Part shown: positions 8,541-35,532 of the stretch, piece by piece
Position numbering within the stretch: position 1 is the stretch's first letter
Layout: each line of letters begins with the position of its first letter
Source: a virus
Virus record (IMG/VR): IMGVR_UViG_3300042446_000399
Coordinates: 1 to 40,216 of that record
Direction: 5' to 3' (one strand)
Length of the DNA stretch: 40,216 nt
Made by a program: the position numbers and the translations under genes
Notes under the pieces: model-generated
The model's input: only the letters and a program-made list of their open reading frames with translations
Told to the model about the DNA's origin: nothing
Databases searched by the model: none

Positions 8541-8560
8541 TACCAAACCCCTTTATTCTA

Positions 8561-8568
8561 TATTTATA
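8561..8568 (-). promoter_or_regulatory. T4-type late promoter octamer TATAAATA
   Basis: A perfect match on the minus strand to the T4 late-promoter sequence, in the 34-nt gap between two fibre-like genes and 20 nt before the ATG at 8540. It has the same spacing as three other such sites in this window, which argues against chance. Expected to be read by RNA polymerase carrying the late sigma factor gp55. Confidence 0.75.
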
Positions 8569-8574
8569 TCAAAA

Positions 8575-10422: not shown

Positions 10423-10427
10423 TTTTA

Positions 10428-12524
10428 TTATCTACCAGTGTAAATGATATAGTTAACTGTCATGTAGGGATTCATGATACTGAAAGCAACCCCTAGACTA
10501 CCAGCAGTGTCAATGCCGCCACTAGTTGGAAGATATTGCCCAGTGCCGGATGCCGTAGGACCTTGTCCTGTGATATAGTTAGTATCAGGAATAACAGTGC
10601 TTGAGTTTCTAAATGCAAAAAACTGTGTTCCTGCATTGGCTCTTAAATCATGTTCGTGATCAGGAATATTAGACAATGTTAAAGATTTTTCAGCAGTACC
10701 AGACCCTGTACCCAGTGTATCAGCAGAAACATCAGTTACTCTATCTGCGTTACCTCCGCCAGCATCAATTAATATAGTCGGGTCAGCAATACTAGGTACA
10801 GTGTTGCCGTTGTCCATATTGTCTCTGCCCAATGCAAATCTTCCTCTTAAATCTGGAAGTGCAAAAGTGGCACTGCCAATAAGCAAAGATGTGGCTTTGA
10901 AGGTATAGCCTATAACTGCAAAAAGTTCAGGATAATCACCGATTCTAATTTCACTACCGTCACAGAACAAATAGCCCAACGGGGGTGCTGAACCACCAAA
11001 GCCCATAATTGTTCCAATTGGCATAGTTGCTACGCCTTGCAACAGTGTTGTCTTGGTGAGTTTTCTTAATCCTGTACCGGGTCGATTAATTAAAATTTCA
11101 TCATTAAGTTGACTAGTAAGTGTTTCTGTTCGATTAGTTAAAAAATCTTGACTGATAGTAGTGGTAAAAGTTGCAAACCCTGCAGTACTTTGTCCATCAA
11201 AACTTACAGTGTTGCTGGAAACTTCGCCAGCAAGTTGAAAAACAGTAGGTGAACTTAATTTACTAGCAGATCCTGTAACATTACCAGTAACACTGCCTGT
11301 TAAATTGCCAACAAATTCTTGTGATAAAATTTGATCAGCATATATCCTACGCCATGCTTTGCCGCCAGTCAGCGGTTCTGTTCCTAAATCATAAGTTCCG
11401 TCGGCGTCTGGAATCACATGATATGTAGTCGACGTGCCAGTGACTGCAAAATTACCACCTACTCTTAAATTTTTAGTTATGGCTGCGCCGCCTGCAGTCT
11501 TAATACTGCCCGTGACTAAACTAGTAGAATCAGTAGTTCCTGCAACAATTAAACTGTCACTGATTCTGATGTTACCAGTAACGTCTAACGCTTCAGCAGG
11601 TGCTGTATTGTTAATACCAACAGCCCGTGTGCTGTCGATACGCAGCACTGTAGAAGTTACTCCGTTATTGACTGTTTTAAAATCAAATGCTGATCCGTTG
11701 GCCTTGTTGTTAAATGTAGGGATATTACTGTCAATGGTGATACTTAATTCACCTGAACTACCAACAGTAAGTCCACTGGGGTTTCGAACGTTGAACTGAA
11801 AATTTGTTGTACTTGCTGTGTCGCCACGTAAAAAACTAGAAGCCGATACTGCATTTCCACCAATTACTAAAGAATCAGCCTTTTCACTAGTGCCCCAAAA
11901 CTTGTTTGGTAAACTGTTACTGTTAAAATCTTTACTAGATAGATTAAATCCTTGTCTAATTTCACTAAATCCAGAAATTGTAGATTTTGGAATAAATGCA
12001 TCTTTACTGATAATGCCGACTTTTTCGTCGCCAACAAACAAATTCAATACACTGTGAGTAATGTTACTTGCATCAACAACACTTTCAACTTCGGCACCAG
12101 TTCTTAATCCACTGCTAAACTGTGGTCCAACCAATACCCAGTTACTGCCGGTGAACAAATAAAGTTGTTGATTATCAGTATCCGCCCACAAATCACCTAG
12201 ATTGCTGTTGGCCACTGCAGGAGCAGTGTTAGATTTTTTAATACTACCAGCAGGAGCCCAAGTTGTGCCGTCATATACCTTTAATTGATTTACCCCAGCA
12301 CTGTTATCATACCATAACTGTCCTTCAACAGGATTAGTGGGTGCAGAAGTTTTGGCAAAATTTTCTAAAAGATGTAAAAAATTCTCAGCAATAATTTGTG
12401 CATAGCCAACATAATTTTTTCCCACAAAAGTTACAGGTAATTGTTGGTTAAGAGTTTGATCCTCAACTGTTATATCTGGTTTTTGAGGATTACCTGTTTC
12501 AGTATATTTGATAGTGTATGACAT
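10428..12524 (-). CDS. Tail fibre protein with phage tail-collar domain (698 aa)
   Basis: Longest of three tandem paralogues. The head domain (VGKNYVGYAQIIAENFLHLL, GQLWYDNSAG, GDLWADTDNQQLYLFTG) and the EVESVVDAS / GIISKDAF / IRQGFNLSS block fill about residues 1-220. A strand-rich shaft follows with NTAPAEALDVTGNIRISDSL and GSIKTAGGAAITKNLRVGG. From about residue 500 comes a tail-collar domain: MPIGTIMGFGGSAPPLGYLF, CDGSEIRIGDYPELFAVIG, FALPDLRGRFALGRDN. The end is rich in Gly, Ser and Asn (IPDHEHDLRANAG, then PYMTVNYIIYTGR). Collar domains occur in short tail fibres (T4 gp12) and receptor-binding tips, so host contact is likely. It begins with TAATG shared with the preceding gene's stop. 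Confidence 0.88.
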   Translation of the reverse strand: MSYTIKYTETGNPQKPDITVEDQTLNQQLPVTFVGKNYVGYAQIIAENFLHLLENFAKTSAPTNPVEGQLWYDNSAGVNQLKVYDGTTWAPAGSIKKSNTAPAVANSNLGDLWADTDNQQLYLFTGSNWVLVGPQFSSGLRTGAEVESVVDASNITHSVLNLFVGDEKVGIISKDAFIPKSTISGFSEIRQGFNLSSKDFNSNSLPNKFWGTSEKADSLVIGGNAVSASSFLRGDTASTTNFQFNVRNPSGLTVGSSGELSITIDSNIPTFNNKANGSAFDFKTVNNGVTSTVLRIDSTRAVGINNTAPAEALDVTGNIRISDSLIVAGTTDSTSLVTGSIKTAGGAAITKNLRVGGNFAVTGTSTTYHVIPDADGTYDLGTEPLTGGKAWRRIYADQILSQEFVGNLTGSVTGNVTGSASKLSSPTVFQLAGEVSSNTVSFDGQSTAGFATFTTTISQDFLTNRTETLTSQLNDEILINRPGTGLRKLTKTTLLQGVATMPIGTIMGFGGSAPPLGYLFCDGSEIRIGDYPELFAVIGYTFKATSLLIGSATFALPDLRGRFALGRDNMDNGNTVPSIADPTILIDAGGGNADRVTDVSADTLGTGSGTAEKSLTLSNIPDHEHDLRANAGTQFFAFRNSSTVIPDTNYITGQGPTASGTGQYLPTSGGIDTAGSLGVAFSIMNPYMTVNYIIYTGR

Positions 12525-13155: not shown

Positions 13156-13163
13156 TATTTATA
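13156..13163 (-). promoter_or_regulatory. T4-type late promoter octamer TATAAATA
   Basis: Perfect octamer on the minus strand, overlapping the stop-codon region of the giant gene and lying 20 nt before the ATG of the 203-residue gene. It would restart late transcription after the 13.7-kb giant gene and so help supply the fibre genes downstream. Spacing is the same as at the other late-promoter sites in the window. Confidence 0.75.
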
Positions 13164-16100
13164 GTGGCCAAACACCGGGCGCTGACTTTATAAAATTAGC
13201 GATATTGTTGGTGCTATCCACTAAACTGGTGTCAAGATCACTCCACATTTTTCCAATCTTTTTCACAACTACAATCTTGGTATCATCGGGCGGAGTTGTT
13301 GTGAGTCTTACTGTAGAAGTTTCACCGTCAACACTGAATTCTGATTCATATTGTACATCGCCTTCGGGACTTTCTAAATGCACCGTGATATCATGCAGTT
13401 TATAAGGAACTTTCTTCAAGCGATATCCAGCCACAAAAACTTCAATTTGATCACATTGACCAAAATTTGACGGAATAGTGTTTCTATACCAAGGAGTATA
13501 TACAGTACTGCCGTCATCAATAGTTGCCGGTGTTGCCTCTGGAACAAAGTTAGTGTGCAGTACATTACTGCTGTCAGTTGAAACAAAAGTTTCTATTACT
13601 AGTTCGTCCTTGTACGGAATAGTTTCTGAAATACCAATATTGATAATATCTGTACCAGAACGATGCACAGTAGGTACACCTGTACCTAATGTACCTCTTC
13701 GCAATCTACTTAACACGTTGCCAGTTTTAGCAAAATATTCGATACGTTCACCGTTGATATACACAATACCTGGTAAATTTCCTTCAGGATTAGGATCGTC
13801 TAGTACACTAGCGTTGTCAACTGTTATGCCTATGTCTGTTTGATTTAGATCATTTACAATAAACGTTTGCTTATTTTTATTCAATCGTTTGTAGTGTGTT
13901 CTATTCAGCATGTCTTTGAACTGCATATAAGAGTATTGTTCTGTTACAGCAGTTGGATTATATCCTATCACTGACAATTTGTCATTAGGTAATACATCTT
14001 TAACTTCTATTGTTCTGCGATCTGCTAACAATTTCCAGTCAACGCTGTGTGTTAACAAATTACCATTTTTAATTACCCAAACAAAATCATCAGACACAGT
14101 TGTCCTGTCTAAAACAAATAGTCCTCTTTCTTTATTTCTAAAAGTAAAATAATCAACTGTACCTGCAGTCAAACTGATTGCCGATGTAATAGTATCCGAC
14201 TTACGTTGAATATCCATAACGTCGTGATTGTAAAAACTAACAATTTCAAATTCAGTTCCCGCTGGCCATACTGTGTTGACAAATTGAATAGTGCTGGCAG
14301 TCATTTTGTATTCTGCATCAGTATCAACTACTACAATTAATTTTCCGTTGTCAATATATTTACTACTGGTCAACACAACACTCACTGTGCCAAAATCAAA
14401 AATGTATTCACTACCAACAATCAATTGTACTCCATTTAGATATACTTTTAAATTAATTGGGGCAAAAGAATACGGTGCAAATTTATGCTGTGGTAACGAA
14501 TAAATTAAATTGTTGTTAGTCAGTGTAAAATATTCAGCACTAGATGATCGTAAAATTGTTTGTCCAGTACGTACTATAACATTATTTTCATATATGTCAT
14601 TGAATCCCACAACGTTTGTTAAAGAATATACAGTTGTAGATCCGTCTGTAACAATAGTTTCAGATTTAACTACGCTTGTTTTTTGTAATTCTGTAGAGTC
14701 ATCACTAAAAAATTGTCGCTGAATTAGATAATTTACAATACTGCCAGATGGTGGTGGTGAAACAAATCTTATTCCAACTCGATAAGCACTTTGGTATGTG
14801 ATATCAGTTTGAAATAAATCATAGTTTAATAAATCGCCGTTGACCAATACTATAGATGTAGCGCCAGCAATCCAACTAGTATTGGTAATAAATTCCATTG
14901 TACTACCATCTCCTACAAAATAATCAAGATCTAAAATGCCTTCGCCATTGAATGAGAAACTAGATACGGCTACATCTGAATCCAGTACAGGAGGTACAGT
15001 AAACACTACATTTGAATTTTGCCAATCAACAGTATAATCAATGCTTTGTTCTTTGACGATGCCGTTGACTAATACTGTAATTGCCTGTTTAGAATTAGCA
15101 TATTGTTTTAAACTAAAGTTTACATTAGTGCCATTGCCTTTGTAGTTGTTCCATTTAATTTTGGCACTGCCATCTCTGCTCATTGCATAAACTTTGATAG
15201 CCACTGCATCTAAAATTTGTCCAGGGACTAATTCTTCAGGACCATGGCTGGTATCAGGAGTAACAAAATTATCACCATCTAATATAATATCATCAGGTGC
15301 AATACCAGTAGCGGTAGTGTACGCTAAGTTTCCGCCTTGTAAAATAGTATCATATTCATTTTCATTAGGTAAGAAACTGCCGTCGCTTGTGCTCTTACGG
15401 AAAATAATCTTGTCCCCATCGTTGATGTTTAATGGATACGGATCTGTTAGATTAGGTAAATCTATAACATTTGTTATTCCGTCTCCAATAAAGGTAGACA
15501 TTACTACCCAATCTTGTGCTAATTTTCTACCGTTGGGTTGAATAGTTGAGCCATCATATAGATCAAAATATGGATCATCTATACGTAAACCATTTACATA
15601 GATGTTGATTTCTTGACCCAGTGTTGGGGTGTAAGGCAGAGTGAATACATAGGTGCTGTCGCCAACGGTTACTATATAATCATCAAAAGCAGCATCAAAG
15701 CCGTCCCACTGATCAGAAAACCAAGGCAGTGCATCCCATCCTGCACCGGCACCAAATCCTAAACCAGTAACATTGACGCCGCCGTAATCAACACCTACTA
15801 AAAGTTGTCCAAGGTCGTTGCCTAACTGTCCTGTTGTAGGATTGTAAAAGAAATTAATTCTATCTGCCGCAGATAATAATGTAACATCTTTATAATAATT
15901 TACTGAAACTGTTTCTCCAATGGCTGGGGCTTCATCCAAAGTAAGAACACTGTAATATGCAGTATATCCTCTAGTCACTGAAGATTTTTTAGTTATTGTA
16001 TAATTTTCTCTCAGAATTTCTTGGCCTGCTACAGTTATTGTAGATTTACCAACTTTAACATCAGCGGGCCACTTTAATATAAACTGTTTTAAACTTCCAG

Positions 16101-19100
16101 ATCCAGTAAATGTTTCAGTTTCTGTAAGTTCGGTGATATAATAATTTTTACTAGTTCTGTCAAACTTTACAGACACATGCATAGATCGTACAACTTCACT
16201 TTCTATAATAGCAACTGCTTGTGCAGCAACTCCGTTTTCAGCAAGGCCGCCATCTAATATCACTGTAGGCGCTGACAAGTAACCTGTACCAGGATTAATA
16301 ATTTTAATTCTGTTTACTTTTCCGTTGGCAATAAATGCTGATGCAACTGCTCCAGTGCCGTTACCAGAAATTCTTACCACAGGTGGAATAACATAGCCGC
16401 TGCCACCGTTGACAATTTCTATAGATTTAATTTTAAATCCAACATTGTCGTACCAGTTTTTCCAAGGATATTCTAACACTTGAGAACTGTTATAAATTAC
16501 AGTGTTATCAATATATCTAACATTTATTGGTTCAATTTTTCCTTCGCTGTTATATACTTGAGGCAAATCAAAATCTGAAATCATTGACGGTGCACCATCT
16601 ACTTTACTGTATGCACTGATATATTCTCGAACTTTGGTTCTGTAAGGTTTAACTTCGTTAATATAATCTTCATAATTTTCAAGATTATCATTGTTGTAGT
16701 TTACTTTTTGCTTTAGTTCTCCAGCATTGTGTGTTGCTTTAATAAAACTAGTTTTCATTAGCCAGTCAAGATACGACTGTTCACTGAGTGCATATCTAAA
16801 CCCAACAAATAATAAATCTAACCAGTATTGTCTATAGTTGTCAACGAATATCTTGTTCTTTAAAGTTTCTAAAATAATGCGTAATTCGATTGTGGCTGAA
16901 TTGTCATAACTGTTATTGTCATATAATCCTCCATCGAAAGTCAGTAGACTGTTTGTTAGTTTATAAAGACTAGAACTAAATTCTATTGTGCCGCGTTGAC
17001 GACCAATAACTTTATAACTCTGAGTATAATCTTGACTGTTTACCTGTGCATATTTTTCTAACAATAGCCAGCCACCAGTCCCAACGTTGAAAACTTTGAC
17101 AGTCTCACCTATGTTTGACTGTATCAATGGAATTTGATAAGTGTAATTTACACTGTAATCTATTTGAGTAAACTGATTGTATCCTTCAGCAAACCAATCA
17201 ATATAATTCCAGAAATTAGTTACATCGTAACTTTGACTTTTTACACGACTCCAAGTTAGAGATCCAGTGTCATAAGCATATACACTCCATCTGTTTAGTG
17301 CTTGACTATCTGACGTAACCAACACACTGTAAGGTCGCACTGACAGTGTAGTAGATGCCGTATAACCTATGCCACTGTTCAACACAGTCACTCCTGTTAT
17401 TCTACCTTGTGCATCCAATGTAGTTTTTAACGAAGCATCTATACCCTTGCCTGAAATTTTTACATACGGGGCATTAGTATATCCAATTCCAGAATCTATC
17501 ACTGTGGCACCTATAATTTTTCCGTCAACAATGATAGGCGTCAGTCTAGCAGACCGTAATCCGTTTGTAGATATAAATCTAATTTCTGCATCAGTGTCTA
17601 ATACTCTGTCGTATACTCCTCTGGATGCTGCAGGAATATTTTCTGCTTGTTGTAAATCTGTTAGATCAAAATCATCAACCACTAATAAATTCTGTAGTAT
17701 GCTGTTGGTACGTTCAATAACTTGTTTTAATGCTTCGTATCTATAGACAAACATACTTTGTCTTGGTCTAAATTCAATTCCATATTTTTTCTTAACTGGT
17801 AAATTGATATCTGGCACAAGTCTATCATTTTTGTCTTTTCCGACAAGACTGTCAATCCATTTATTTTCAATAGCAGCCGGCACAATGCAGTCTGCATCTT
17901 GTCGTATTAACTTCCACTGACTGTGAATGTTTACAGTATCATTGGGTACTAGCCAATACTGTACATTTAATTTAACACTGTCTGCAGACAACAGATTTTT
18001 GCAATTAAACAAATGAATACTATTTGCCGAACCGAATGCTACAAATTTGTAATTTTGAGATTTTGGATCAGAGATCAATCGACTTACGGCTAATGCAGAA
18101 AGTGTTCGACCCTCTATATTTGCAGGAATAGTAGTTTTGTTTTTTACCCAAAAGTAATAACTGGTTTTGAAATTTTTAGTTTGCGTGTCATATCTACGCT
18201 TTGTGCTGACAATGTTATCACCATATCTGGCTTGGCCACTAATTCCTTGCGCCAATCCTTCTTCAGTATCTGCAAGTTCATTCCATCGCGAAGGAGTAAA
18301 TTTACTTTTTACCCATTCAAACACATCTATGCTGGCAGTTTCATACAGCGTGTTCCAGGTGGTATTTCTATATGCAACATCACTGTCGTAATGATCTAGA
18401 AACTTTGCACGAGTCAGATCCCACCACAATGTGCCTACAAATTTATCAGTCCAATTGGCGCCATCATCTACTATTACACTGTCAATACCTGTGCTGTAAG
18501 TTGCAGGATCGTAATATGTTTTGTACTTTATTTCTTGATCTGCAACTCCTGCAATTTTTCCCCTAATAGGATCAATAGTATCAATATAACTGATTAATTG
18601 ATTAGTATCAGCATTATAAAAATATAACTTTTTAATCTTATCAATGTCAACATAGTCCGCTTGCTGATGCAGAATAGACCAACTGTAACTAGTACCTGGA
18701 CGATTATACAACCATATTGCACCGGCAGACGGTAAATTATTATAAGTTGCTAACGGCGCAGACACTAGAACATTGTATCTTGATGTTTCTATTACAGAAC
18801 CATATCCATCATCTTGTATTTCTAGATAAGTTTTTAAACTTTCACCATATACATAGTTGTTTAGATATTTGTCATAGATATCAACCCGGCCACTGTCAAC
18901 GAATGTGTCTGTCAGCGACATGTTGTTTCCGTCGAACGTAGTTGGTGTGGCCAAACTGATATCAAACGTAATTGTTATTGAACTGTCGCCACGTTTGGCA
19001 AAAATTGCTAGAGATTTGTCGTCATCAAAAAATCTCACCGTGCTGCCAAATTGCTCAGCAACTTCTGCATATTTCTTTTTAATAATTTGTAAATCGTCAA

Positions 19101-22100
19101 ATCTATTTAAAGTATTGTTGTAATTAAAAACAAACACCGCACCCTGATCTGATGTTTGATCATCATACAATATTGATCCCACTGCCAGTGTACTGCCAGA
19201 TCGGGTTAATGAAACACTTTCGCCAAATCGGCACTGTTGGTCTATGTTGAAATCTCTACTGCTGAGAGTATCAATCAATTGAAAAGTGTCTTGGGTATAG
19301 GTGTACACAAACACTTTACCCTTGTCAATTGCTGTTAAGTCTAAAGGTGTCCATTTATCATAATTGAAATTTCCAGCATTAAAAATTTTAGTAGAATCTT
19401 CTATTGCTGTGCTGTCACCTTCTTCACCATAAGGGCCTGTAAATTGCCAGTATTGACCATTATAAATTACTATTTCGCCAATAAAGTAGGCCATGTCACT
19501 ACGGTATGGACCTTTGTATCCGTCGTAATTGAGATTGTCACTGTGTGGGGCCGACGCAACCAACATTGATCCGTCTGTTGATAGATCAAACTCATAACCA
19601 AATTTGTCGCCGGCAAACACAGACTCTACATTTTCTGATTGTAGTAAAGTTGTACTGCCATCGTTTATTACTTGTTCATCTATATCCAGTGTTGTTATCA
19701 ATTTAGGAACAAAACATTGTATATTTGTGTTGTCTATTTCTTGCCATAAACTAGGATTGTTTTCAAAAGGATCTGTTGGCACTTGTGCAATTGCTTGGTA
19801 TATCTTGAAATCATAATACACAATGTCACCGACATTATATTCAAATCCTGGATTATGATAACCACGATATGCTCTGTTGTAATCCATGTGCCACTCAAAG
19901 CCGCTGTCTACAGATACATCGCCGTATCTAAAGAAATACAAGCGACCTTGATTGGCGTTGGTACCGGGGCTGCTAATTACCGCTAGATATTCACCATTGT
20001 TTTCTGTGATTTTTATTTTTGATCCAAACAATTCACTTTGTGCAGGGTACGGACTTACAATAGAGTGATTTAAAATGTAATTTCCAGTATCGTCTCGTTG
20101 GTAGATATACACCATACCCTGATTGGTCAATCCGCTGCCAGTGCCCGACAACTCAGCCTCAATTAATCTTGCTGGCTCCCAGTCGTCAAGAAATTCAGTA
20201 ATAACAGCACTGTCTGCACCTAAATTATACATTGCTCGCCAATGCGATAATCCGCTTTGTACTATTGCACCTTGTGGATAACTTTGTGGAAATTGAAGAT
20301 TACCAACAAACTTTGTTTTAACATCCGTAGCAGTAGGTGCACCTACGAACAACCATCTAGCATCTTTACTTAAAGTCACAGATGCTCCAAATCTATTACC
20401 TGCTGCAGATAGATTTTGCAGTTGTTGAATTGTTTGTTTTTGTACCCAATTACCTTCAGGACTTTTTGCAAAAATAAACACAGATTGTAATGCAGTCGAA
20501 ACTGCCATAGTATTTGCAGCGTCATCGATAGAAAAACTTGTTCCAAATTTTTGCTGTGCAACAGGCAAACCCTGATCCATTTGGTCTATTGAGAAAACTG
20601 AATTATTTTGCCAAACCGTCCATTTGTTGTTGTTGTCTGTCCACAACAACTCATTTCTTTTTAAATTTTCAGGAAGACGATCATTGGCGTCATCAATGTT
20701 GGTTTCTAATCTAGCAGATACAAATTTATAAACCAGTATCTGACTGCTGTCTCCAGCATCGTGAGTACCTTTGTTAGTATTTGTTAATGTTATTTTTCTT
20801 CCTACAATTTGAGAAATTTTGTAGAAACCGTTCAGACTAACAGTATTAGCAATGCCAATGATATCGCCCACTGCAAGATCTGTAAGTTTTGAAAAATCAA
20901 GTTGTACTGTTGTAGTAGTAGTTTCTATTACTTCAACGCTGTTGACTATTTTAGTATATCTATAAACGTTCCAATCTATGCCGTCAAACACTGTCCAAAC
21001 ATAGTCGCCTTCTTTCAAAGTCACAGACGAGTTTGCAGGCAACAATAAATCTGCCAACGAATCAATATTCAATGCCACATCATTATATCGCACATAGCCG
21101 GCATTTCTTAACAATTTCGAAGATGTTGTTAGTGTTGGCCAGAAATCATATGTAAAGTTTACTGGTTTTAAATATATGTCGTTGATATTTTGTCTAATTA
21201 TAAAATCAACATTGTCAACTGATGTGTTACTAGTCAGTTCAAGGCCTTGTGGATTTGTTTTAAATTGTTCTTCATCTAAAGTAAATTCAATTTCTTCATA
21301 GGCGGCACTGCCACCGTATTGTCCTACACGAACTGCCCATTCTTCGTCAAGTGTTAAACTTTCTTGAGTAGTTGCACTTAAAACATCAAATAATTTATTG
21401 AATACATTTTCTGTACCCTTTTCAATAATCATGCCTTGATAAAATTTATATTGGCTGACATCGTCTTTGATTATGTTTTCAAGATAGGTACGCTTTTGAT
21501 ATCCAATAAGGTGTTGTGCAACCTTTTGCTGATTGGTATCAAAATTGTCAGTATTTAAATCGTAGAAATCATTAAACTGTTCGGCCTTGTAATCCCAGTT
21601 AGGCAATAGACCTTTTTGAGGCTTGTCTTCTAATATATTCCAATTGTCGTTGTCGAATTCTAAACTACCCGGAGTAAATTTCTTTGCTGCGTAGTAATAT
21701 TGTTTATATTGTACAATGTCTCCTAGATAGTAATCAGTCCAAGATTTCCAAACTTCAACTTTGGCTTCGTCATATATAAATCCTGGAATGTTAAAACCAC
21801 CATCCCAATTGTTGGAAAGATATCCCAACACTTTAATTCTTTCTTGTCTGTATCCAGGTTGTAGATCATAAATCACATCATTAAACTGTGTGATATTATC
21901 TAACAACAATACATGTTCTTTTTGTATGAGATAAAAAGATGCACCATATATTCCTTGCCCAGTATTTTTTGGCGATAATGAGTAGACATTGTCTTCTCTA
22001 TTAGTGTTGATAAAGTCAGCAGACAATGGCTGGCCGTCACTTTGTAAAATAGAGTAAGGATAAAATATATCAAAAATATTGTTAATTTGTGCAAGTTCTG

Positions 22101-25100
22101 TTCGCAAGGAAATTTTCAATGCACTAGGACTCAAACACAATACTGTGCCAACAGTCCAATTCTGTGTTAACCAGAATGCAAACTCTTTAGCACTGGTTTC
22201 CCAGTTGGTTATTGTGTTAAGTGCAGAGTTGAAACTGTCAAAAATAAATCCTAATGTTTCTAAACGTTTACCGTAGCCGATTAGAAAATCTACAACATCT
22301 TGATACTCTGTAAATTTTGTTCCGTACGGTACTCTAGTAATAGAAGTTGCAAAAGACTTTTTAATCACAATGTCTCTGCCGCCAGAGATAGGCAAAGCAC
22401 TCAGTCTAATAAACTTAGTTTGATCAAAACTGTCGGTACTGGTGTGTGAAACAGTGCATTTAAAAAATTGATTATTTTCTCTAACAATTGTTTGAATACG
22501 ATAAACTTGGCCAGCTGACCAATTTAGAAACGATTCACTTATACCCCCGATATTCACTACTCGGCCAGCACCTTGAGGTTGATAATAATCAAAATACGGA
22601 TCATCAAAATTATATCCGCGGACTTCAAATCCGTCAACAGACTTTTGTATTACTACACCGCTATAATTTATTTTTTGTATTGGCGAGTTAGTGTTTAAGA
22701 AAATATCATAATTTTCGTCAGGCACAAATACATTTGATGTACTAGACGGACTCTTGCTATCTAACAGTAACCTAAATTTTTCTTTACTAGTGAATCCACC
22801 TAACTTACTAGTTAATCCGCATGTGATATTTTTAAGATCATATTTGTAACCATTGTAAATTTCAACATTAACTCCTGTTTGCGAATCTACAATCCAATTG
22901 ATAATTCCAGCAGTATATGTTCTATCAGTAGACTGCACAGTTGCCGGCAAAATTATGTCTTTAAATTTTATTCTTAAATTAGTGTCAGCATAAACAAATT
23001 GTCCTGTAAGATTTTTTACAGTACGTGATCTATCAAGATAAAGGCCTAATGTCTTATTAGGATACATCAACAATGCGGTTTGTATTACTGCAAATGCATA
23101 ATAACTAGATCGTGACCATGCAGTTTCTGTAGGGGCGCTGTCTCCGAACACAAAATCATTGTTAGCGTCAACTTGAATAAATCCAAAAATTGAATTACTC
23201 AGCAAGGGGCTTGTCAAGTTTCCATCCTGATCAACTGGGATTCTTGACAACAACCCGGGTCTTACAAATTTTTCTCGAGTAACTACAGGTGTATTAGGTT
23301 CTCTAACATAGCCGTTTTGCAAATCTTCCCAAAGAATTAAGTTATCCGAAGTATACGGTCTTGGACCGTATACTGATTGCCACCAACTAGGTTCTATACT
23401 AAATCCTAAACATTCCCAAGGATGAGTATGAGGCCTATCAGTGTCTAATAGATATCTGTAAATTCCTCTCCAAAATCCAGGACTGTCTTCCCCGTTAGGC
23501 AATTTATTTTGATTGTAATTAAAAGTAAAAGGATCTAATCTATCAAAAAAATCATTTACGACAATATTATTATCTATTAATGATGCCCATCGATAAAAAC
23601 TACCGCTCAAGATATCTAAAAATTCTTGACGAGAATATTCTGTTGCTCGAGAATACCCTGGAATAATATCATAGATATCTATGATTTCAGAATCATAGTT
23701 GACTTTTATATTATTGTAAATTCGTTTTTCTAATTCTAATATTAAATCATCTCGGTAATCATTAAATGCCAAAGTTATACTACCGTCGTGACCTTGTATT
23801 ACTCGAGTAGATTCTAAATAGGTGTCATCATTATAAATTTCAGGAACAAATTTTGGATACAGTCCTAACTTAGACGGAGTAGATGGGATAAAACATCCGT
23901 CAGTAGAATCATATTCTGCAATGTCAATTGTATCACCTTCGGCTAAACTTATAAGAATGTTTACAAATCCCTGACTATTGAATTCATAATCTTTTGCAAA
24001 AATAAGTTGTTCGCCATTTAGATATACTAATACAGCATGATTCGACAGCGTCGACATATCAAAATTAAAAGACAAAGGATATGTTGAAATCTCAGAATCT
24101 AGTACAGTGAATTGATAATTCTGTAAACCGGTATGAGGCACCATATCACTGAGATAATATTTTTCAGTATTAGATTTTGATTTATTAATTTCATTTAATA
24201 CTAAATCTACAAAGTCTCGAGGAGTAGTGTCAATGCCGAGATTTTCAGCAGTCATTAAAAAATTTCTTTTGAATTTGCCGTAATCATCTCCCGCAGTATC
24301 AATTGCATTTACGGCGTTCGATGTTCTACTGCCAATATGATACAAACTGTTAACCAAGGGGCCGCTGTGTTGAATGAACCGTGTGCCGTACTGTGCAATT
24401 GAACCTAAATCTCGTAAATTATTGTTTCCAGGAAATACTCCTTCAAAATTTGTAAGATTGTTGATAATGCTGTCAACATGATTATTAACTTGTCCCAATG
24501 TAAAAATGTTGACATTTTCATTCAATGGATTGTTTTGTAGACTAACTGGTAACTCATAATATCCGTTGATGTTTTTTGCTTGAGTAGCCAATGTTTTTAT
24601 CACAATAACATCATTGAGATCAGCACTGACATTTAGTACAATGTATTTGAATTTGATACCATCTTCAATTACATATTGTGTATTTGATAATCTGATTCCA
24701 TTTAGATATACACTGACTCTTAAATCTGCAAGATCATTTATATCATCATACACATCTATATTAAAATTATTTGTTTGGACTTGACCTTTATAAATTCTAA
24801 TAACTCTTTGAAAATCGTCGTAGTAATTTGTTATCCATCCGTTAGTGTAAGTCTCAGTGTCATCTAACACAATTTTTAAATAATTTGTTGACACATCGAC
24901 TGTTATTAATTCAGCGGCTTGTTTGTAAGAAAATTTATCTGTTGTATAATTAAAATTAAAAACCACATCTCCAATGTTGTTGATGTTTCTATATGTCAAT
25001 GGAAATTTTAATACACTATCATCAATTCCTGTACCTCGTTGATAGGAAAAAACTTTTGTACCTACAAACGTACTGCCTTCGTATTTGTTAATGTCCGATA

Positions 25101-26817
25101 TACCAACGTTATCGTTGTCATAAACATCAAATAATACATCTTGATTTATGCTGATTTTTTCTTGGCCTAATTTCCAAGTAGCACCGTCAAACCAATACAT
25201 CTTGCCTTGATTGGTTCCTAGTTTAACCAATACTGTTTGATCCCGTTGAGGCTCTGTATCATCAACTTCGATTAATGTTATTTGTTTTTGACGACCTAAT
25301 CCGAATTGTACTTCGATAAATTTTACTTGAAAAATTCTACCCACTACTCTAATGTCAGTGTCAGCAGTAACTAACAATCTGTGTCCGTCGGCTAAATTAA
25401 CTCCGTCTACATTATATCCTAAACTGCCTTCGATAGTACTGAAAACATCAGTAGTAAACGTATCAATCAAGTCGATATTTTTTTTGGCGTTGGTTCCAAA
25501 ATTATAAAGTTTAATTCCAGCCGCAAATTCAATAATTGGTCGCTTGGCTCTTGCGCTCTGATCTAACTCTGTTGTTATTCCGTTGATCGTAGATGTAATA
25601 TCTATAATGCCTTTATGAAACCATCTGTTATAACGACTCCACGGATTTCTATCTGGGCTTGCTCGATTAACTGTAATATAGTCTTGATCTCCAGCAAATG
25701 CAGTAGCATCATCGAATGGTAATTCATCGAATGCTGTGTCATCAAACAACACTGATCTCTGCTCGCTGTAACCACTGACAATTTCTAAATCATCTGCAGA
25801 CACTAAACGAATTTTATCACCAACTCCCTCAACATACCAATATCCTAAAGCATATTTCGATGGCGATACCTCGCCAACAAAGTTTACTTTCATGCCATTA
25901 CTAAGCGGATATCCATTACCCATGGTATATGTTTTTTTGCCTATAATTTCTTCGTCAACATCAATTTCTGTATTCTCTTCTATATTTTGAATTTGTAATA
26001 CGCCACCGACATTGACATCATCTTCGCTGACATAGAATAAAACATTAGGGGCATCTAGCGGAATTTCAAAAGTCAATATTCCAGACTCTACAGCAGTTGC
26101 TCCACTATCATCAACTGATATACCCGAAGTATATCGACTCAGTGTTCCACCTATTCTCTGAGTTTTGATACTAAATGCTTGGTTTGGCGCTGTAACATTA
26201 AATTTGTATGTTTGGCCTCTGTATAATTTTAATACTGGATTTCGAGTCAGTCCATCAGGATTAAAAATATAAGCAAAATTATCTCCCTCGTCTACTAAAC
26301 TTACAGTGTATTCGCTTTGAATTGTTTTTTGTTGGCCGTAAACTGGGATAGCAGCAGGTCCGTAAGGCAACCAATAGTATTGTTGAAAATTTACAAACTT
26401 ATCCCAATCTATCAATGGATTCCAACTGTAAAATTCTTGTTTGTTTAATCTACGATGATTATTTGTTATACCACCTTGCACACTAATATGGTTGATATGA
26501 TCTAGATAATCTTTGTTAAACACAACATTATCTAGATCATCTTTGATGATAGCACTGGGTTCTAATTGATAATTTTGTCTGTCAGTAGTAGAAGTTTGAA
26601 CAAAGATATCATCAGCAGTGGTGGCTTTGCTGTCTTGACGACCAATAAATCCGTTGACTTTTTTTACAGTGCCAGGCTGTAACAATTGTTCTAATGTAGC
26701 GTGAACAAATTTTTTGTTGCTGTCAGATCTATAAAAACGAGGCAGTAGGCTAGAAATTTTTCTTGAAGAAGGATCTATCGGAACTGGGTATTCGTTTTGA
26801 CTGTTGTCGTATGCCAT
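13159..26817 (-). CDS. Giant multidomain baseplate/fibre-type virion protein (4552 aa), gp7 position
   Basis: One uninterrupted 13.66-kb frame, a third of the window, starting 9 nt after gp6 with AAAGG before its ATG. It sits where T4 has the wedge protein gp7 (1032 aa); overall similarity to gp7 is not visible. The N terminus (SSLLPRFYRSDSNKKFVHAT) and a WWQSVYGPRPYTSDN block near residue 1150 look like conserved cores of giant cyanophage virion proteins. Modules seen: YLNG-type beta repeats near residues 694, 926 and at least six from ~3600 to ~4460; CBM5/12-like GDIVxY modules near 1430, 1690, 2320 and 2440; a seven-bladed FG-GAP-like propeller at ~2090-2710; GxGY repeat pairs near 3090-3160 and 3460-3525; an EVKPYRTKVREYISAY block near 3400; RLRRGTLGTG near 4370. 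No enzyme site or membrane segment found. Likely a giant wedge or peripheral baseplate protein with sugar-binding surface modules; role inferred. Confidence 0.9.
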   Translation of the reverse strand: MAYDNSQNEYPVPIDPSSRKISSLLPRFYRSDSNKKFVHATLEQLLQPGTVKKVNGFIGRQDSKATTADDIFVQTSTTDRQNYQLEPSAIIKDDLDNVVFNKDYLDHINHISVQGGITNNHRRLNKQEFYSWNPLIDWDKFVNFQQYYWLPYGPAAIPVYGQQKTIQSEYTVSLVDEGDNFAYIFNPDGLTRNPVLKLYRGQTYKFNVTAPNQAFSIKTQRIGGTLSRYTSGISVDDSGATAVESGILTFEIPLDAPNVLFYVSEDDVNVGGVLQIQNIEENTEIDVDEEIIGKKTYTMGNGYPLSNGMKVNFVGEVSPSKYALGYWYVEGVGDKIRLVSADDLEIVSGYSEQRSVLFDDTAFDELPFDDATAFAGDQDYITVNRASPDRNPWSRYNRWFHKGIIDITSTINGITTELDQSARAKRPIIEFAAGIKLYNFGTNAKKNIDLIDTFTTDVFSTIEGSLGYNVDGVNLADGHRLLVTADTDIRVVGRIFQVKFIEVQFGLGRQKQITLIEVDDTEPQRDQTVLVKLGTNQGKMYWFDGATWKLGQEKISINQDVLFDVYDNDNVGISDINKYEGSTFVGTKVFSYQRGTGIDDSVLKFPLTYRNINNIGDVVFNFNYTTDKFSYKQAAELITVDVSTNYLKIVLDDTETYTNGWITNYYDDFQRVIRIYKGQVQTNNFNIDVYDDINDLADLRVSVYLNGIRLSNTQYVIEDGIKFKYIVLNVSADLNDVIVIKTLATQAKNINGYYELPVSLQNNPLNENVNIFTLGQVNNHVDSIINNLTNFEGVFPGNNNLRDLGSIAQYGTRFIQHSGPLVNSLYHIGSRTSNAVNAIDTAGDDYGKFKRNFLMTAENLGIDTTPRDFVDLVLNEINKSKSNTEKYYLSDMVPHTGLQNYQFTVLDSEISTYPLSFNFDMSTLSNHAVLVYLNGEQLIFAKDYEFNSQGFVNILISLAEGDTIDIAEYDSTDGCFIPSTPSKLGLYPKFVPEIYNDDTYLESTRVIQGHDGSITLAFNDYRDDLILELEKRIYNNIKVNYDSEIIDIYDIIPGYSRATEYSRQEFLDILSGSFYRWASLIDNNIVVNDFFDRLDPFTFNYNQNKLPNGEDSPGFWRGIYRYLLDTDRPHTHPWECLGFSIEPSWWQSVYGPRPYTSDNLILWEDLQNGYVREPNTPVVTREKFVRPGLLSRIPVDQDGNLTSPLLSNSIFGFIQVDANNDFVFGDSAPTETAWSRSSYYAFAVIQTALLMYPNKTLGLYLDRSRTVKNLTGQFVYADTNLRIKFKDIILPATVQSTDRTYTAGIINWIVDSQTGVNVEIYNGYKYDLKNITCGLTSKLGGFTSKEKFRLLLDSKSPSSTSNVFVPDENYDIFLNTNSPIQKINYSGVVIQKSVDGFEVRGYNFDDPYFDYYQPQGAGRVVNIGGISESFLNWSAGQVYRIQTIVRENNQFFKCTVSHTSTDSFDQTKFIRLSALPISGGRDIVIKKSFATSITRVPYGTKFTEYQDVVDFLIGYGKRLETLGFIFDSFNSALNTITNWETSAKEFAFWLTQNWTVGTVLCLSPSALKISLRTELAQINNIFDIFYPYSILQSDGQPLSADFINTNREDNVYSLSPKNTGQGIYGASFYLIQKEHVLLLDNITQFNDVIYDLQPGYRQERIKVLGYLSNNWDGGFNIPGFIYDEAKVEVWKSWTDYYLGDIVQYKQYYYAAKKFTPGSLEFDNDNWNILEDKPQKGLLPNWDYKAEQFNDFYDLNTDNFDTNQQKVAQHLIGYQKRTYLENIIKDDVSQYKFYQGMIIEKGTENVFNKLFDVLSATTQESLTLDEEWAVRVGQYGGSAAYEEIEFTLDEEQFKTNPQGLELTSNTSVDNVDFIIRQNINDIYLKPVNFTYDFWPTLTTSSKLLRNAGYVRYNDVALNIDSLADLLLPANSSVTLKEGDYVWTVFDGIDWNVYRYTKIVNSVEVIETTTTTVQLDFSKLTDLAVGDIIGIANTVSLNGFYKISQIVGRKITLTNTNKGTHDAGDSSQILVYKFVSARLETNIDDANDRLPENLKRNELLWTDNNNKWTVWQNNSVFSIDQMDQGLPVAQQKFGTSFSIDDAANTMAVSTALQSVFIFAKSPEGNWVQKQTIQQLQNLSAAGNRFGASVTLSKDARWLFVGAPTATDVKTKFVGNLQFPQSYPQGAIVQSGLSHWRAMYNLGADSAVITEFLDDWEPARLIEAELSGTGSGLTNQGMVYIYQRDDTGNYILNHSIVSPYPAQSELFGSKIKITENNGEYLAVISSPGTNANQGRLYFFRYGDVSVDSGFEWHMDYNRAYRGYHNPGFEYNVGDIVYYDFKIYQAIAQVPTDPFENNPSLWQEIDNTNIQCFVPKLITTLDIDEQVINDGSTTLLQSENVESVFAGDKFGYEFDLSTDGSMLVASAPHSDNLNYDGYKGPYRSDMAYFIGEIVIYNGQYWQFTGPYGEEGDSTAIEDSTKIFNAGNFNYDKWTPLDLTAIDKGKVFVYTYTQDTFQLIDTLSSRDFNIDQQCRFGESVSLTRSGSTLAVGSILYDDQTSDQGAVFVFNYNNTLNRFDDLQIIKKKYAEVAEQFGSTVRFFDDDKSLAIFAKRGDSSITITFDISLATPTTFDGNNMSLTDTFVDSGRVDIYDKYLNNYVYGESLKTYLEIQDDGYGSVIETSRYNVLVSAPLATYNNLPSAGAIWLYNRPGTSYSWSILHQQADYVDIDKIKKLYFYNADTNQLISYIDTIDPIRGKIAGVADQEIKYKTYYDPATYSTGIDSVIVDDGANWTDKFVGTLWWDLTRAKFLDHYDSDVAYRNTTWNTLYETASIDVFEWVKSKFTPSRWNELADTEEGLAQGISGQARYGDNIVSTKRRYDTQTKNFKTSYYFWVKNKTTIPANIEGRTLSALAVSRLISDPKSQNYKFVAFGSANSIHLFNCKNLLSADSVKLNVQYWLVPNDTVNIHSQWKLIRQDADCIVPAAIENKWIDSLVGKDKNDRLVPDINLPVKKKYGIEFRPRQSMFVYRYEALKQVIERTNSILQNLLVVDDFDLTDLQQAENIPAASRGVYDRVLDTDAEIRFISTNGLRSARLTPIIVDGKIIGATVIDSGIGYTNAPYVKISGKGIDASLKTTLDAQGRITGVTVLNSGIGYTASTTLSVRPYSVLVTSDSQALNRWSVYAYDTGSLTWSRVKSQSYDVTNFWNYIDWFAEGYNQFTQIDYSVNYTYQIPLIQSNIGETVKVFNVGTGGWLLLEKYAQVNSQDYTQSYKVIGRQRGTIEFSSSLYKLTNSLLTFDGGLYDNNSYDNSATIELRIILETLKNKIFVDNYRQYWLDLLFVGFRYALSEQSYLDWLMKTSFIKATHNAGELKQKVNYNNDNLENYEDYINEVKPYRTKVREYISAYSKVDGAPSMISDFDLPQVYNSEGKIEPINVRYIDNTVIYNSSQVLEYPWKNWYDNVGFKIKSIEIVNGGSGYVIPPVVRISGNGTGAVASAFIANGKVNRIKIINPGTGYLSAPTVILDGGLAENGVAAQAVAIIESEVVRSMHVSVKFDRTSKNYYITELTETETFTGSGSLKQFILKWPADVKVGKSTITVAGQEILRENYTITKKSSVTRGYTAYYSVLTLDEAPAIGETVSVNYYKDVTLLSAADRINFFYNPTTGQLGNDLGQLLVGVDYGGVNVTGLGFGAGAGWDALPWFSDQWDGFDAAFDDYIVTVGDSTYVFTLPYTPTLGQEINIYVNGLRIDDPYFDLYDGSTIQPNGRKLAQDWVVMSTFIGDGITNVIDLPNLTDPYPLNINDGDKIIFRKSTSDGSFLPNENEYDTILQGGNLAYTTATGIAPDDIILDGDNFVTPDTSHGPEELVPGQILDAVAIKVYAMSRDGSAKIKWNNYKGNGTNVNFSLKQYANSKQAITVLVNGIVKEQSIDYTVDWQNSNVVFTVPPVLDSDVAVSSFSFNGEGILDLDYFVGDGSTMEFITNTSWIAGATSIVLVNGDLLNYDLFQTDITYQSAYRVGIRFVSPPPSGSIVNYLIQRQFFSDDSTELQKTSVVKSETIVTDGSTTVYSLTNVVGFNDIYENNVIVRTGQTILRSSSAEYFTLTNNNLIYSLPQHKFAPYSFAPINLKVYLNGVQLIVGSEYIFDFGTVSVVLTSSKYIDNGKLIVVVDTDAEYKMTASTIQFVNTVWPAGTEFEIVSFYNHDVMDIQRKSDTITSAISLTAGTVDYFTFRNKERGLFVLDRTTVSDDFVWVIKNGNLLTHSVDWKLLADRRTIEVKDVLPNDKLSVIGYNPTAVTEQYSYMQFKDMLNRTHYKRLNKNKQTFIVNDLNQTDIGITVDNASVLDDPNPEGNLPGIVYINGERIEYFAKTGNVLSRLRRGTLGTGVPTVHRSGTDIINIGISETIPYKDELVIETFVSTDSSNVLHTNFVPEATPATIDDGSTVYTPWYRNTIPSNFGQCDQIEVFVAGYRLKKVPYKLHDITVHLESPEGDVQYESEFSVDGETSTVRLTTTPPDDTKIVVVKKIGKMWSDLDTSLVDSTNNIANFIKSAPGVWPL
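18690..20560 (-). repeat. Seven FG-GAP-like propeller blades encoded inside the giant gene
   Basis: Protein-level repeat. Seven copies of FGxxxxxxxDxxxLxVxAP...GxVxxY start near residues 2091 (FGTSFSIDDAANTMAVS), 2143 (FGASVTLSKDARWLFVGAP), 2265 (FGSKIKITENNGEYLAVIS), 2406 (FGYEFDLSTDGSMLVASAP), 2533 (FGESVSLTRSGSTLAVGS), 2590 (FGSTVRFFDDDKSLAIFA) and 2669 (YGSVIETSRYNVLVSAP). Seven is the blade number of integrin-type propellers. Positions are estimated by counting and may be off by a few residues. Confidence 0.7.
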
Positions 26818-26826
26818 TGTTTACCT

Positions 26827-29800
26827 TTAAGAACTAGAAATTTGATTTTTGTTTGCAATTTTTTCGGTTGTCGTAATTGCACCGATGGCTTTTATTTTAC
26901 TTGCTGTAATACTGGATACAATTTCGATATCATCAACTGTTGCTCCATTTACAAAAATTTCATCTTTTTCACATGTGATTTCAAACAAACTACCAAAATA
27001 TAAATTGTCTGCTTTGGGCACAATGACGAAACTCACTATAAACGGTGAAAGTTCTGCTAATACAAATGTTGATAATTCCCCGAAATAAAATGTATTTCCA
27101 AAATCCCAATTTTCAATTGAGAAAAATTTTGTTATAGAATTTAATATTCGTGTTTTAACATCATTGTCACTGATAACTTGTTCTGTGTTTTTTACCACTT
27201 TGAATGTGGCCTGCAAATCTATTTTTGCAAGACTGCCAAACAATATTTTAAATTTCACAGGATGATAAATGATTTCGTCACTTATAGATTTAATTTTTCT
27301 TAATGTAGGATGAAGATCATTATATAAACTGTCACTGCTAGGAGGTAGCGGTTCTTCTTCGATTGAACCGTTGACATATTGTCTATATGCAGTGTCGTAT
27401 TCTTTAGTTAAAATAAAAATATCAATAATGTTTGTAATTCCAGGATCAATTCTAGTTTCATAATCTGCATTATGAATATACTGGAATTTTAATCTATCTC
27501 GACCAACTAATACTTTGTATTGCAAACTTGGTATCAGCGTAGACGCAACTTTGTCTAATTTTTTTACTACATCAGTGTCAATAAAATAAAAATGTTGTGC
27601 TTCTACGTATTGAGAATAAGAAGAAATTGAGGTCTCTGACGGTAAAATTATAACTACAGGATTAGTTAAATCATTATAGATGTATCGATAATCTTCCTGA
27701 CGATCACCGATAGTATATTTTTCTTGTATAATATATTTTCTCTGAAGGACTTCAAGATTTGTTTCTGTAACAGAAGGAGGATCAACAATATCATTAAAGA
27801 TATCTGGATTATCTACAACACTGTCTTCGTCCGTATCGGTAAAAGTAATTTCAATTTTCTTAGTGTCAACGTATCCATCTAATCCACTGTATTCTTTGAG
27901 AATAGACCAATCTCTATCAAAAGTATAAGCAGAAGTCAATGGTGCGGGCGCAGTGTTTATACTTAAAACTTTTATCTTATCTTTGGCCACTGTGTTTGTT
28001 CTAGTGTCATAAATTTTATCACTGCTGTCGTAATAAAATCTAATTTGTTGATCACTCTCAAATATGTAACGAAGTTTTCTAGAATTAACTGTGTAAAATT
28101 CATCGTCTGGTGTGAACAAAATTAACCAACTAGAATCTAACTTTTGATTAGATCTGTCACCTGCTTTACCTAGACTAAACAGATTAGACACATTTAAATT
28201 TTGTTCAAAAACAATTTTCCAAGTTCTAGTTGTTCTGTCATATCTCAGACCAAATGGTCTATTATCAAACACTAGATCAATAATAGTTGTAATTGTGCTG
28301 CTTTCGATTGTATTTTTATATTTAGGAATAATTCTAGATAATCTAGCATCATTAGGAACAATGTCATTTAATATAATAGGACCAAAACCGGTAGACAAAG
28401 TGCCGGTGTTGTTGGCAGTGCCGTCACCGGTCACAGATACAACTTTAGTCCATAATACTGTAGATCCGTTAGATGGAATTCCGCTTGACGGAATTGTTTC
28501 TAATTTATTATTGGAAGATTTATTGAAATACTGACCAGTAGGCGCAGTAAATTTAACCAATGCTCCCGATTCAACATAAGTTAAATCAGTGCTGGTAAAT
28601 TGTCCGGTTGCATACGGAATAGTGTCTACTATATTTCCAAAATATCCAGTGCTTTGATTAGTGTCTACTGTCTTAGAATACCATCTTGAAATAATAGTTG
28701 CAGATGTATCAATTTCGTAATTGGCATAGAAATAATTTTTTAAGTTATCATCTTTGATAACATTGAATAATTGATTATAAACTACAAACTCAATATCAGT
28801 TTTAGTCACATAAGAAAATCTAAAACTGTCAGAATACAATTCTTTATAAACTACGCCGTCATCAGAAAATAAATTTGTTTTACTGTATTTTCCTGTAGGA
28901 TCCACTAGATCAAAATAACGACTTATTCCGCTGGAACTTCTATTAACTGCTTTGATCTTGAGAATTTCCTGACTCACTGCTAAAGGACTAATATTATAAT
29001 CCTCTCCTGTGATCATTCTATTTTGAGTGTAATAACTGGCCGGCGCATTAGTTTTGATACTGTCATTAGTTTCTGTGGCGGCTGCATTGACCACAGTGGA
29101 CAACAAACTCATGTTAATTGTTAATACTTCAATTTGACCTGTATTACTGACATAAGAAATATCCACACTTACTGAACGAATGTCTTTGGGATTAATAGTG
29201 TAGGAAAATCCATTGCTGGTTCTATAGTAGATTCTAAAAGTGCCTAATGGCAACGTGCCGAATACTCCGTCAGAAAAATTCAAACTTATTCTATCACCAA
29301 CACGGGTAATGACACTATAGATGTTTCTTATATTTTTTTCTAAACTGTTGTAAATGGTGTTGTTGCCTTTGAAATCAGATACCGGAGCCCAGTACTGAGA
29401 TTCTCTACCGTTGTTGTCTAATTTGTATAGCCATACATCTGTGTTGTTGATGTTGGCAGCATCTATGTCAACAATTTCATTTGACCCTGGTTGATCTAGT
29501 GTAAATGTGCCGGTATTAAGTTGGCCCTGTCTAAAGTGAAAGAAAAATCCAGTGTTACTTGACCCAGTGCCCTTGCCATCATCCTTGTAGATAAAAGCAG
29601 GTGTTACGCCCAATGCTGGTGGCTCTTCTTTCACCACGGAATTCAACGTGTCTATAACTGTGCTGGTAATTTCAAATTGCATGTTTCGGCCATCAACTGC
29701 TTTAGTAAACCCAAACACTGGCACATCGGTGCTGATGCCTTTAAATCTATACTGCTCTGTAGGAACTCCTACTATGGTGGCCTTGGCATCAGGTTTACCA

Positions 29801-35223: not shown

Positions 35224-35532
35224 TCAAATTCCCAATGTTGAAACTAATCCAGATTTTTTAGGGATAAAAATCTGAGTACCTGCAATAAAATCAAACACAG
35301 GATCTTGTATTATATCTAGATTTCGTTGTGCAAATACCCACCAAAGTTTGGATGTGCCATACAGATCAAACGACAACAGATCAGGTCTGTAGGTATATTG
35401 AGGTTCAATAGTGTAAAGATAATCATCTTGTTCTGCAGACACTGGTCTAATTTTTAATATGTCAAGATAGTCCTTGGCAATTCTAGTAGAAAACCAAGGA
35501 CTGGTGTTAGTATAGATGCTGTTAACTGACAT
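35224..35532 (-). CDS. gp53: gp53-like baseplate wedge protein (102 aa)
   Basis: Short protein dominated by one motif, YTYRPDLLSFDLYGTSKLWW followed by VFAQRNLDIIQDP and FDFIAGTQIFIPKK. The RPD-hydrophobic-YG----WW----N-I-DP layout is the core of the T4 gp53 family and of LysM-like tail proteins that join wedges to the hub. At 102 residues it is about half of T4 gp53 (196), so it may be the minimal core. ATG overlaps the gp48 stop as TAATG and the next gene starts 1 nt after its stop, so it is made in a fixed ratio with its neighbours. Position between gp48 and gp5-type genes fits. Confidence 0.8.
   Translation of the reverse strand: MSVNSIYTNTSPWFSTRIAKDYLDILKIRPVSAEQDDYLYTIEPQYTYRPDLLSFDLYGTSKLWWVFAQRNLDIIQDPVFDFIAGTQIFIPKKSGLVSTLGI

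Follow-up and report, generated by a model that had tools for sequence, protein, structure and literature searches.

A predicted seven-bladed FG-GAP_2 beta-propeller inserted into a giant baseplate-position protein of a large phage clade

Propeller domains are known from tail proteins of the phages phi11, PRD1 and phiKZ that bind receptors or lie at the periphery: phi11 gp45 has five blades, PRD1 P2 six and phiKZ gp131C seven (PMC6115969). For RaK2, a jumbo phage related to that of the window, a secondary receptor-binding role has been suggested for gp098, a baseplate protein other than the one considered here (PMC10253068). We analysed a 40,216-nucleotide stretch of DNA from an uncultured large-genome phage (IMG/VR record IMGVR_UViG_3300042446_000399, positions 1 to 40,216; hereafter the window), the largest open reading frame (ORF) of which (13159-26817, minus strand) encodes a protein of 4552 residues directly downstream of a gp6-like baseplate gene. 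Within this protein lies a predicted seven-bladed propeller of the FG-GAP_2 family. A search of the open literature, outside of which lay most subscription journals and all preprints, turned up no paper that describes a phage baseplate propeller of FG-GAP or integrin-like type.

The blades begin with FG or YG at residues 2091, 2143, 2264, 2406, 2531, 2590 and 2672. Each blade position in turn was held out; a profile was trained on the remaining six positions in seven minimal relatives, and the held-out blade was scored with it and compared with 650 shuffles per blade. The scores of blades 1 to 7 in the window were 32.3, 28.8, 19.1, 29.7, 36.3, 13.9 and 4.5 bits, and the highest scores among their shuffles were 9.2, 7.9, 7.9, 8.9, 7.0, 11.7 and 8.8 bits, respectively. 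Blades 1 to 6 scored above all 650 of their shuffles, while blade 7 exceeded the 95th percentile (3.7 bits) and fell below the maximum. Among 12 relatives (one a near-copy, and seven having supplied their other blades to the training profile), the shuffle maximum was exceeded by 9, 12, 11, 12, 12, 9 and 9 for blades 1 to 7. Chance repeats are ruled out by this test; the blade repeat is genuine, and one of its blades is weak in the window sequence. A sequence-only reading of the window had counted seven FG repeats in this protein and placed them at 18690-20560. Both the count and the placement held, the interval agreeing with the blades to within about 10 residues; once the entry hairpin and the final strand are counted, the domain covers approximately 18664-20652.

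Prediction of residues 2042 to 2742 with AlphaFold2, using 77 sequences, gave a model with a predicted local distance difference test score (pLDDT) of 88.6 and a predicted template modelling score (pTM) of 0.89, in which 28 blade strands can be assigned from strand order. Of these, A4 and A7 span just three residues each, and the assignment of D3 is the most doubtful. The predicted domain with its hairpin comprises residues 2056-2718 (18664-20652; this and all features of the protein below are on the minus strand). Blade profile and predicted strands together place blade 1 at residues 2089-2131 (20425-20553), blade 2 at 2141-2253 (20059-20397, interrupted by an insert in its B-C loop), blade 3 at 2262-2311 (19885-20034, with the least certain outer strand D), blade 4 at 2404-2519 (19261-19608, likewise interrupted in the B-C loop) and blade 6 at 2588-2661 (18835-19056, with a long B-C loop). 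Blade 5 (2529-2579; 19081-19233) was placed by the blade profile and is the top stretch for Pfam FG-GAP_2. Blade 7 (2670-2718; 18664-18810) is the one that is weakest in the window and is recovered in nine of the 12 relatives.

FG-GAP_2 (PF14312, cut-off 23 bits) matched the whole protein with 34.3 bits and the domain alone with 47.4 bits, a single stretch passing individually. Across the window and 76 of its 91 non-redundant relatives, 70 of 77 propellers matched FG-GAP_2 at E <= 0.001, a proportion that is possibly slightly flattering given the rows left out: seven propellers longer than 800 residues, seven whose propeller matches rank among the weakest, and L002, which duplicates the window region. 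A further relative, L104, had been omitted earlier for a stop or N in its sequence. The other Pfam matches of the 77 were CBM_5_12 (11 members), Beta-prop_EML_2 (five) and eight further families with one or two members each, including the older FG-GAP model and a tail-sheath domain (one member each). That older model, PF01839, had no match in the window record and was rejected in favour of PF14312, which fits. In five longer slots, FG-GAP_2 was over the cut-off in L106 and L205, below it in L175 (20.6 bits) and without a match in L189 and L128.

Structural comparison pointed in the same direction. VIA-align placed integrin alpha-M first (Z 23.4, 354 residues, 2.9 A, model residues 32-675) and also returned a designed seven-blade protein (Z 22.4, 2.6 A, model residues 34-666), and the top PDB matches of Foldseek were integrin alpha-4 chains (E 6.7e-11). 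Searched against the PDB, the family profile likewise placed integrin alpha-4 first (E 1.5e-6), and integrins made up 11 of the 12 rows at E <= 0.01, the remaining row being 6-phosphogluconolactonase; the whole ORF as a single sequence matched only a chitinase (E 0.16). Among viral predicted structures (BFVD), the matches comprise, besides others, FG-GAP proteins from giant viruses and from an uncultured Caudovirales phage; a 393-residue 'hemagglutinin' of Atu_ph07 and a virion protein of cyanophage S-TIM5 are also among them. The pattern D.[DN].[DN]G, which we take to represent the DxDxDG-type calcium loop of integrins, occurs nowhere in the 4552 residues. We consider it well supported that the region is predicted to form a closed seven-bladed beta-propeller of the FG-GAP_2 or integrin-alpha type. 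The complete seven-blade FG-GAP propeller proposed from the letters alone is thus upheld: the model is toroidal, has well over five blades and is joined to an FG-GAP profile match.

The propeller is an insertion in an otherwise shared scaffold. When 24 sequences were aligned, the scaffold aligned over most of its length, and residues 2001-2700 were filled to only 15-39% in six isolated jumbo phages. Between fixed anchors the propeller was present in 104 of 110 distinct sequences, the six without it being these same isolates. This sample was drawn from the best 80 loci per scan and is biased to near relatives, so a second search was made from the isolates' side. It yielded 240 distinct anchors (anchors shorter than 200 residues having been removed beforehand, uncounted), seven of which were dropped for having fewer than 500 residues upstream. 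Of the 233 relatives retained, 185 carry the propeller (E <= 1e-5; the weakest at 1e-21) and 48 lack it. Among the propeller-less slots, 21 are short (230-353 residues) and 27 hold 424-1565 residues of other sequence. A lenient rescan of these 48 slots returned many weak, short matches, and they were judged to hold no propeller; the best match, in the relative L227 (E 2.4e-7), covered border pieces of the profile only.

A tree was built from the anchor that follows the propeller, with the propeller columns excluded. Presence of the propeller requires two changes on this tree, against a mean of 43.9 for shuffled labels, and the history would most simply be one gain and one loss. The tree is a quick one and leaves 58 of its 230 inner branches open; for the branch leading to the propeller side, the Shimodaira-Hasegawa-like approximate likelihood-ratio test gives 92 (not starred). 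With rooting at the midpoint only, the propeller may alternatively be old and have been lost in the other half of the tree. On its own side it is kept in 185 of 186 rows. Neither this clustering in one clade nor the absence from related isolated jumbo phages was visible to the sequence-only reading.

The sole propeller-less row on that side is L227, a 353-kb contig. Its slot measures 255 residues, and the entry hairpin (residues 2056-2071; 20605-20652), which is kept, leads directly into the equivalent of strand D7 and of the sequence after it; the profile pieces found there score 15.0 and 7.6 bits. As a natural empty site, L227 provides the borders of the inserted domain, and its join suggests that D7 belongs to the scaffold. 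That the propeller is one domain inserted into a hairpin of the gp6-adjacent giant protein in a large phage clade is well supported; the clade is related to the jumbo myoviruses. The exact borders given by L227 could be used in a propeller deletion test. By eye, a W-x-V hairpin motif occurs twice ahead of the propeller, at about residues 1936-1953 and at 2056-2071, nearly 120 residues apart, and the same is seen in L227.

The long slots that lack a propeller include those of L229, L226, L243, L273, L318, L313, L216 and L043 (Atu_ph07). Of the 27, 10 were scanned with Pfam: two contained CBM_5_12 and one a weak match to DUF5666. Scans of the PA5oct, SCTP-2 and Atu_ph07 slots gave no match. The 27 long occupants look like other exchangeable modules. 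Across the relatives compared, the scaffold is fixed, and its single slot is occupied, according to clade, by little sequence, by a propeller or by other large stretches.

The propeller itself is elaborated in the window by three extra segments, in blades 2, 3 and 4, which the sequence-only reading had left unmentioned. The insert after blade 3 (residues 2312-2401; 19615-19884) contains a CBM5/12-type module, a sugar-binding carbohydrate-binding module (CBM), at about residues 2323-2359; CBM_5_12 (PF02839, cut-off 26.2 bits) matched it with E 4.7e-7 and 30.2 bits when the whole domain was scanned, and with 22.6 bits, below the cut-off, when the insert was scanned alone. For the blade 4 insert (2425-2497; 19327-19545) the CBM_5_12 match is weak and below the cut-off (E 0.0099, 16.3 bits). 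The blade 2 insert (2162-2231; 20125-20334) resembles CBM5/12 by eye and has no CBM_5_12 match in Pfam, which returned only GYF_2 (E 0.15). A separate CBM5/12 module (1432-1462; 22432-22524) lies in the scaffold, found by Pfam and by the scaffold profile against the PDB, where its matches are deacetylases and chitinases. Among the 91 non-redundant relatives, extra segments longer than 15 residues occur in 66 and are missing from 25. The placed segments number 37 in the blade 2 B-C loop, 21 behind blade 3, nine in blade 6, seven in the blade 4 B-C loop and five between blades 1 and 2; a further 54 are unplaced, their local alignments overlapping or lying apart. The B-C and D-A loops of integrin propellers form the ligand-binding face. 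If D3 is taken as the strand at 2307-2311, all three inserts of the window would leave from B-C or D-A loops, as judged from the strand order of the model.

The propeller is also the most variable part of the protein among near relatives. With gaps counted as differences, the six 100-residue bins between 2001 and 2600 are the least conserved among ten near relatives (13-32% identity); bin 2601-2700, at 36%, is matched by three bins close to the C-terminus (35-36%), and the remaining bins lie at 38-68%. In a comparison with the flanking sequence, to which 89 of the 91 relatives contributed rows (one of them identical to the window), the propeller was less alike than both flanks in 88, mean identity being 66% for the left flank, 35% for the propeller and 56% for the right flank. 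Many of the loci in this second comparison were themselves located by way of the flanks, and the bins show the same low conservation along the whole protein.

The setting of the protein was established by Pfam and PHROG scans of the window and by comparison with isolated phages. The 4552-residue protein (13159-26817) is a giant virion structural protein by its match to the PHROG 10938 profile (E=0, 1074 bits, in four stretches). Directly upstream, 26827-30309 (minus strand, as are the next three genes) encodes a 1160-residue baseplate wedge homologue matching phrog_10646 (E 4.7e-288) and phrog_219 (E 1.8e-18), both labelled 'baseplate wedge subunit'; from position and family we take it to be gp6. 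Further upstream of the giant gene lie a presumed gp25-like wedge subunit (30356-30799; phrog_261 and phrog_43, both 'baseplate wedge subunit'), a gp5-like baseplate hub or OB-fold protein (30796-32763; Pfam Phage_base_V and phrog_13211, 'baseplate hub subunit and tail lysozyme') and a presumed gp53-like wedge subunit (35224-35532; phrog_7145, 'baseplate wedge subunit'). The baseplate-region placement offered by the sequence-only reading is accordingly borne out, the gene lying directly after gp6 in a baseplate cluster. A tblastn search with residues 1-1685 returned 138 phage records, 19 of which cover 80% or more of the query at a single place. Homologues occur in PA5oct, Atu_ph07, SCTP-2, PBECO4, GAP32, Vibrio phage 2.275.O and RaK2. 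Immediately before the homologue, PA5oct, Atu_ph07, PBECO4, GAP32 and RaK2 have a gene annotated as a baseplate wedge subunit; the homologue is preceded in Vibrio phage 2.275.O by a 1287-residue gene named for a CBM5/12 module and in SCTP-2 by a 9.3-kb gene without known product. The jumbo-phage records consulted label the gp6-adjacent giant only 'virion structural protein', 'structural protein' or hypothetical, and the PA5oct homologue carries an electrospray ionisation tandem mass spectrometry (ESI-MS/MS) mark in its record. The giant protein would sit in the baseplate wedge, in several copies per virion. PHROG 10938 is filed under 'head and packaging', a misfit with the baseplate wedge neighbours in the window and in five isolates. 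The giant ORF stays open over no more than 1678 residues at a stretch in L031 and 2955 in L038, although the match spans the whole protein; this may reflect an assembly error or a real break.

The position after gp6 is that of gp7 in T4. Aligned by hhalign to T4 gp7 as a single sequence, three scaffold profiles and the propeller profile gave nothing (probability 0.1-0.2), and the Gp7 domain was not among the Pfam matches of the 4552-residue ORF at E <= 1. Homology to T4 gp7 thus found no support against this single-sequence template. The sequence-only reading had proposed a distinct receptor-binding or docking platform unlike T4 gp7; the contrast with gp7 was probed here by sequence comparison, a weak test. 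An AlphaFold2 model of a conserved scaffold stretch (residues 1600-2000) had a pLDDT of 56.4 and a pTM of 0.28 and was set aside. The gp7 of PMC10966104 is a different, neck protein.

What might the propeller do? Because it is present or absent on the same scaffold, is poorly conserved and bears extra segments in 66 of the 91 relatives, we read it as a surface module. The wedge would hold the propeller at the baseplate surface, standing out from the scaffold and presenting a variable face that is widened in the window by the segments in blades 2 to 4, one of them a CBM5/12-type module. The variable loops and added modules would bind glycans or another structure of the host surface, and this binding would serve as a secondary or irreversible attachment point. 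We favour a propeller that binds host-surface glycans in this capacity, with some confidence; in broader terms, the propeller probably helps the tail to recognise its host. The propeller-bearing tail proteins of phi11, PRD1 and phiKZ offer a precedent. Several points weigh against this proposal. We found no cultured member with the propeller. The propellers of the window and of a distant relative had no match in phage records (records very near the window possibly having been excluded), and that of a minimal relative matched three, at 22-25% identity and in other protein architectures. Only one of the three inserts is over its Pfam cut-off, CBM5/12 occurs in just 11 of the 77 propellers, and the face from which the inserts leave was deduced from strand order and not from coordinates. 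The low bin conservation reflects in part segments that relatives lack, the flank comparison uses the flanks through which most loci were found, and low conservation is also compatible with relaxed constraint. The fold matches have limits too: TM-scores from Foldseek were modest (0.30/0.35 for the top match, 0.41/0.62 for 9ind_A), and in VIA-align the WD40 chain of G-beta (Z 22.9) ties with integrin.

The strongest competitor is an internal docking or spacing domain that would hold neighbouring wedge proteins, fibres or the sheath without ever making contact with the host. The propeller lies in mid-chain in a wedge-position protein and not at a fibre tip, it is retained in 185 of 186 rows on its own side of the tree, and some strands (such as C6 and D6) are well conserved. 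Yet 48 of 233 relatives that share the scaffold lack the propeller, L227 cleanly so, and a surface facing a conserved partner would be expected to vary less than this, the most variable part among near relatives; we regard docking as rather unlikely. That the propeller is an enzyme trimming surface polysaccharide is improbable. Several phage tail proteins do degrade polysaccharide and CBM5/12 modules often stand beside chitin-active enzymes, as a matter of general knowledge, and the scaffold module has deacetylases and chitinases as its PDB matches; but the Pfam matches of the 77 propellers contain no enzyme family, consisting beyond FG-GAP_2 and CBM_5_12 of propeller or PEP5/VPS11 models (at most five members each) and the one tail-sheath domain, and the eight invariant propeller columns are G, W, Y and a single D. 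Least credible, and largely refuted, is a generic WD40- or PQQ-type propeller on which the FG-GAP label is superficial: the G-beta tie and the five Beta-prop_EML_2 members speak for it, against FG-GAP_2 in 70 of 77 propellers, at most five for any other propeller family, and the integrin share of the PDB profile rows.

If the favoured reading of a host-binding propeller is correct, recognition is partly built into the baseplate wedge and not left to fibres, and the slot becomes a place to seek a host-range determinant in metagenomic jumbo phages. A wider scenario, which we put forward only tentatively, is that the clade gained the propeller once and uses it as a rigid, evolvable attachment ring that forms part of the baseplate, with sugar-binding modules added to the blade loops and exchanged there by insertion, and with unrelated modules filling the slot in sister clades.

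Other genes of the window lie downstream of, or apart from, the giant gene. Three neighbouring proteins of 485, 615 and 698 residues (7089-12524, minus strand) have a common N-terminal module, each matching both phrog_14394 and phrog_15511, and so look like paralogues with different ends. The 485-residue tail-region protein (7089-8546) bears a C-terminal Peptidase_G2 or IMC autoproteolytic domain (PF11962, E 2.7e-6), and the 698-residue protein a Collar domain. Downstream of the tail genes, 1516-5709 (minus strand) holds four ORFs of 337, 306, 275 and 281 residues with a 205-residue ORF between. At least two of these presumably resemble glycosyltransferases, judging by eye from LDADM and LDSDY motifs, and the putative enzymes possibly decorate the virion or the host surface. 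The gene at 837-1529 (plus strand) resembles what we take to be a ThyX-type thymidylate synthase.

FG-GAP_2 modules occur in several phage architectures. Other phage proteins of the family are UFOVP1367_22 (L209; 473 residues), a Phosso protein (L210; 3162 residues) and a C48C1 protein (L211; 1480 residues), with three, six and seven separately significant FG-GAP_2 stretches, respectively; the genes of UFOVP1367_22 and C48C1 lie near tail or baseplate genes. These proteins resemble that of the window in their FG-GAP_2 arrays, and differ in having genes of their own and another architecture, the arrays not being inserted into a gp6-adjacent giant. The propellers of phi11 gp45, PRD1 P2 and phiKZ gp131C share with ours the occurrence in host-recognition or peripheral tail proteins; they belong to other proteins and contexts, and the likeness is one of description only. 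T4 gp7 shares the place directly after gp6 and has 1032 residues against 4552. The window protein matches the PHROG 10938 profile, and its homologues in the seven named jumbo phages have a slot without the propeller, unlike the window. With the integrin alpha propellers (alpha-4, alpha-M) the domain shares seven FG-GAP blades, the best PDB profile match and the top fold matches; it lacks the calcium-loop motif and is found in a phage virion without a known partner subunit. Repeat sequence and blade layout are those of FG-GAP_2, here nested in a giant protein at a baseplate position and bearing extra segments in blades 2 to 4. Thus, the FG-GAP_2 family and the integrin-type fold are known, and what is new, as far as the open literature was searched, is such a propeller within a phage baseplate giant.

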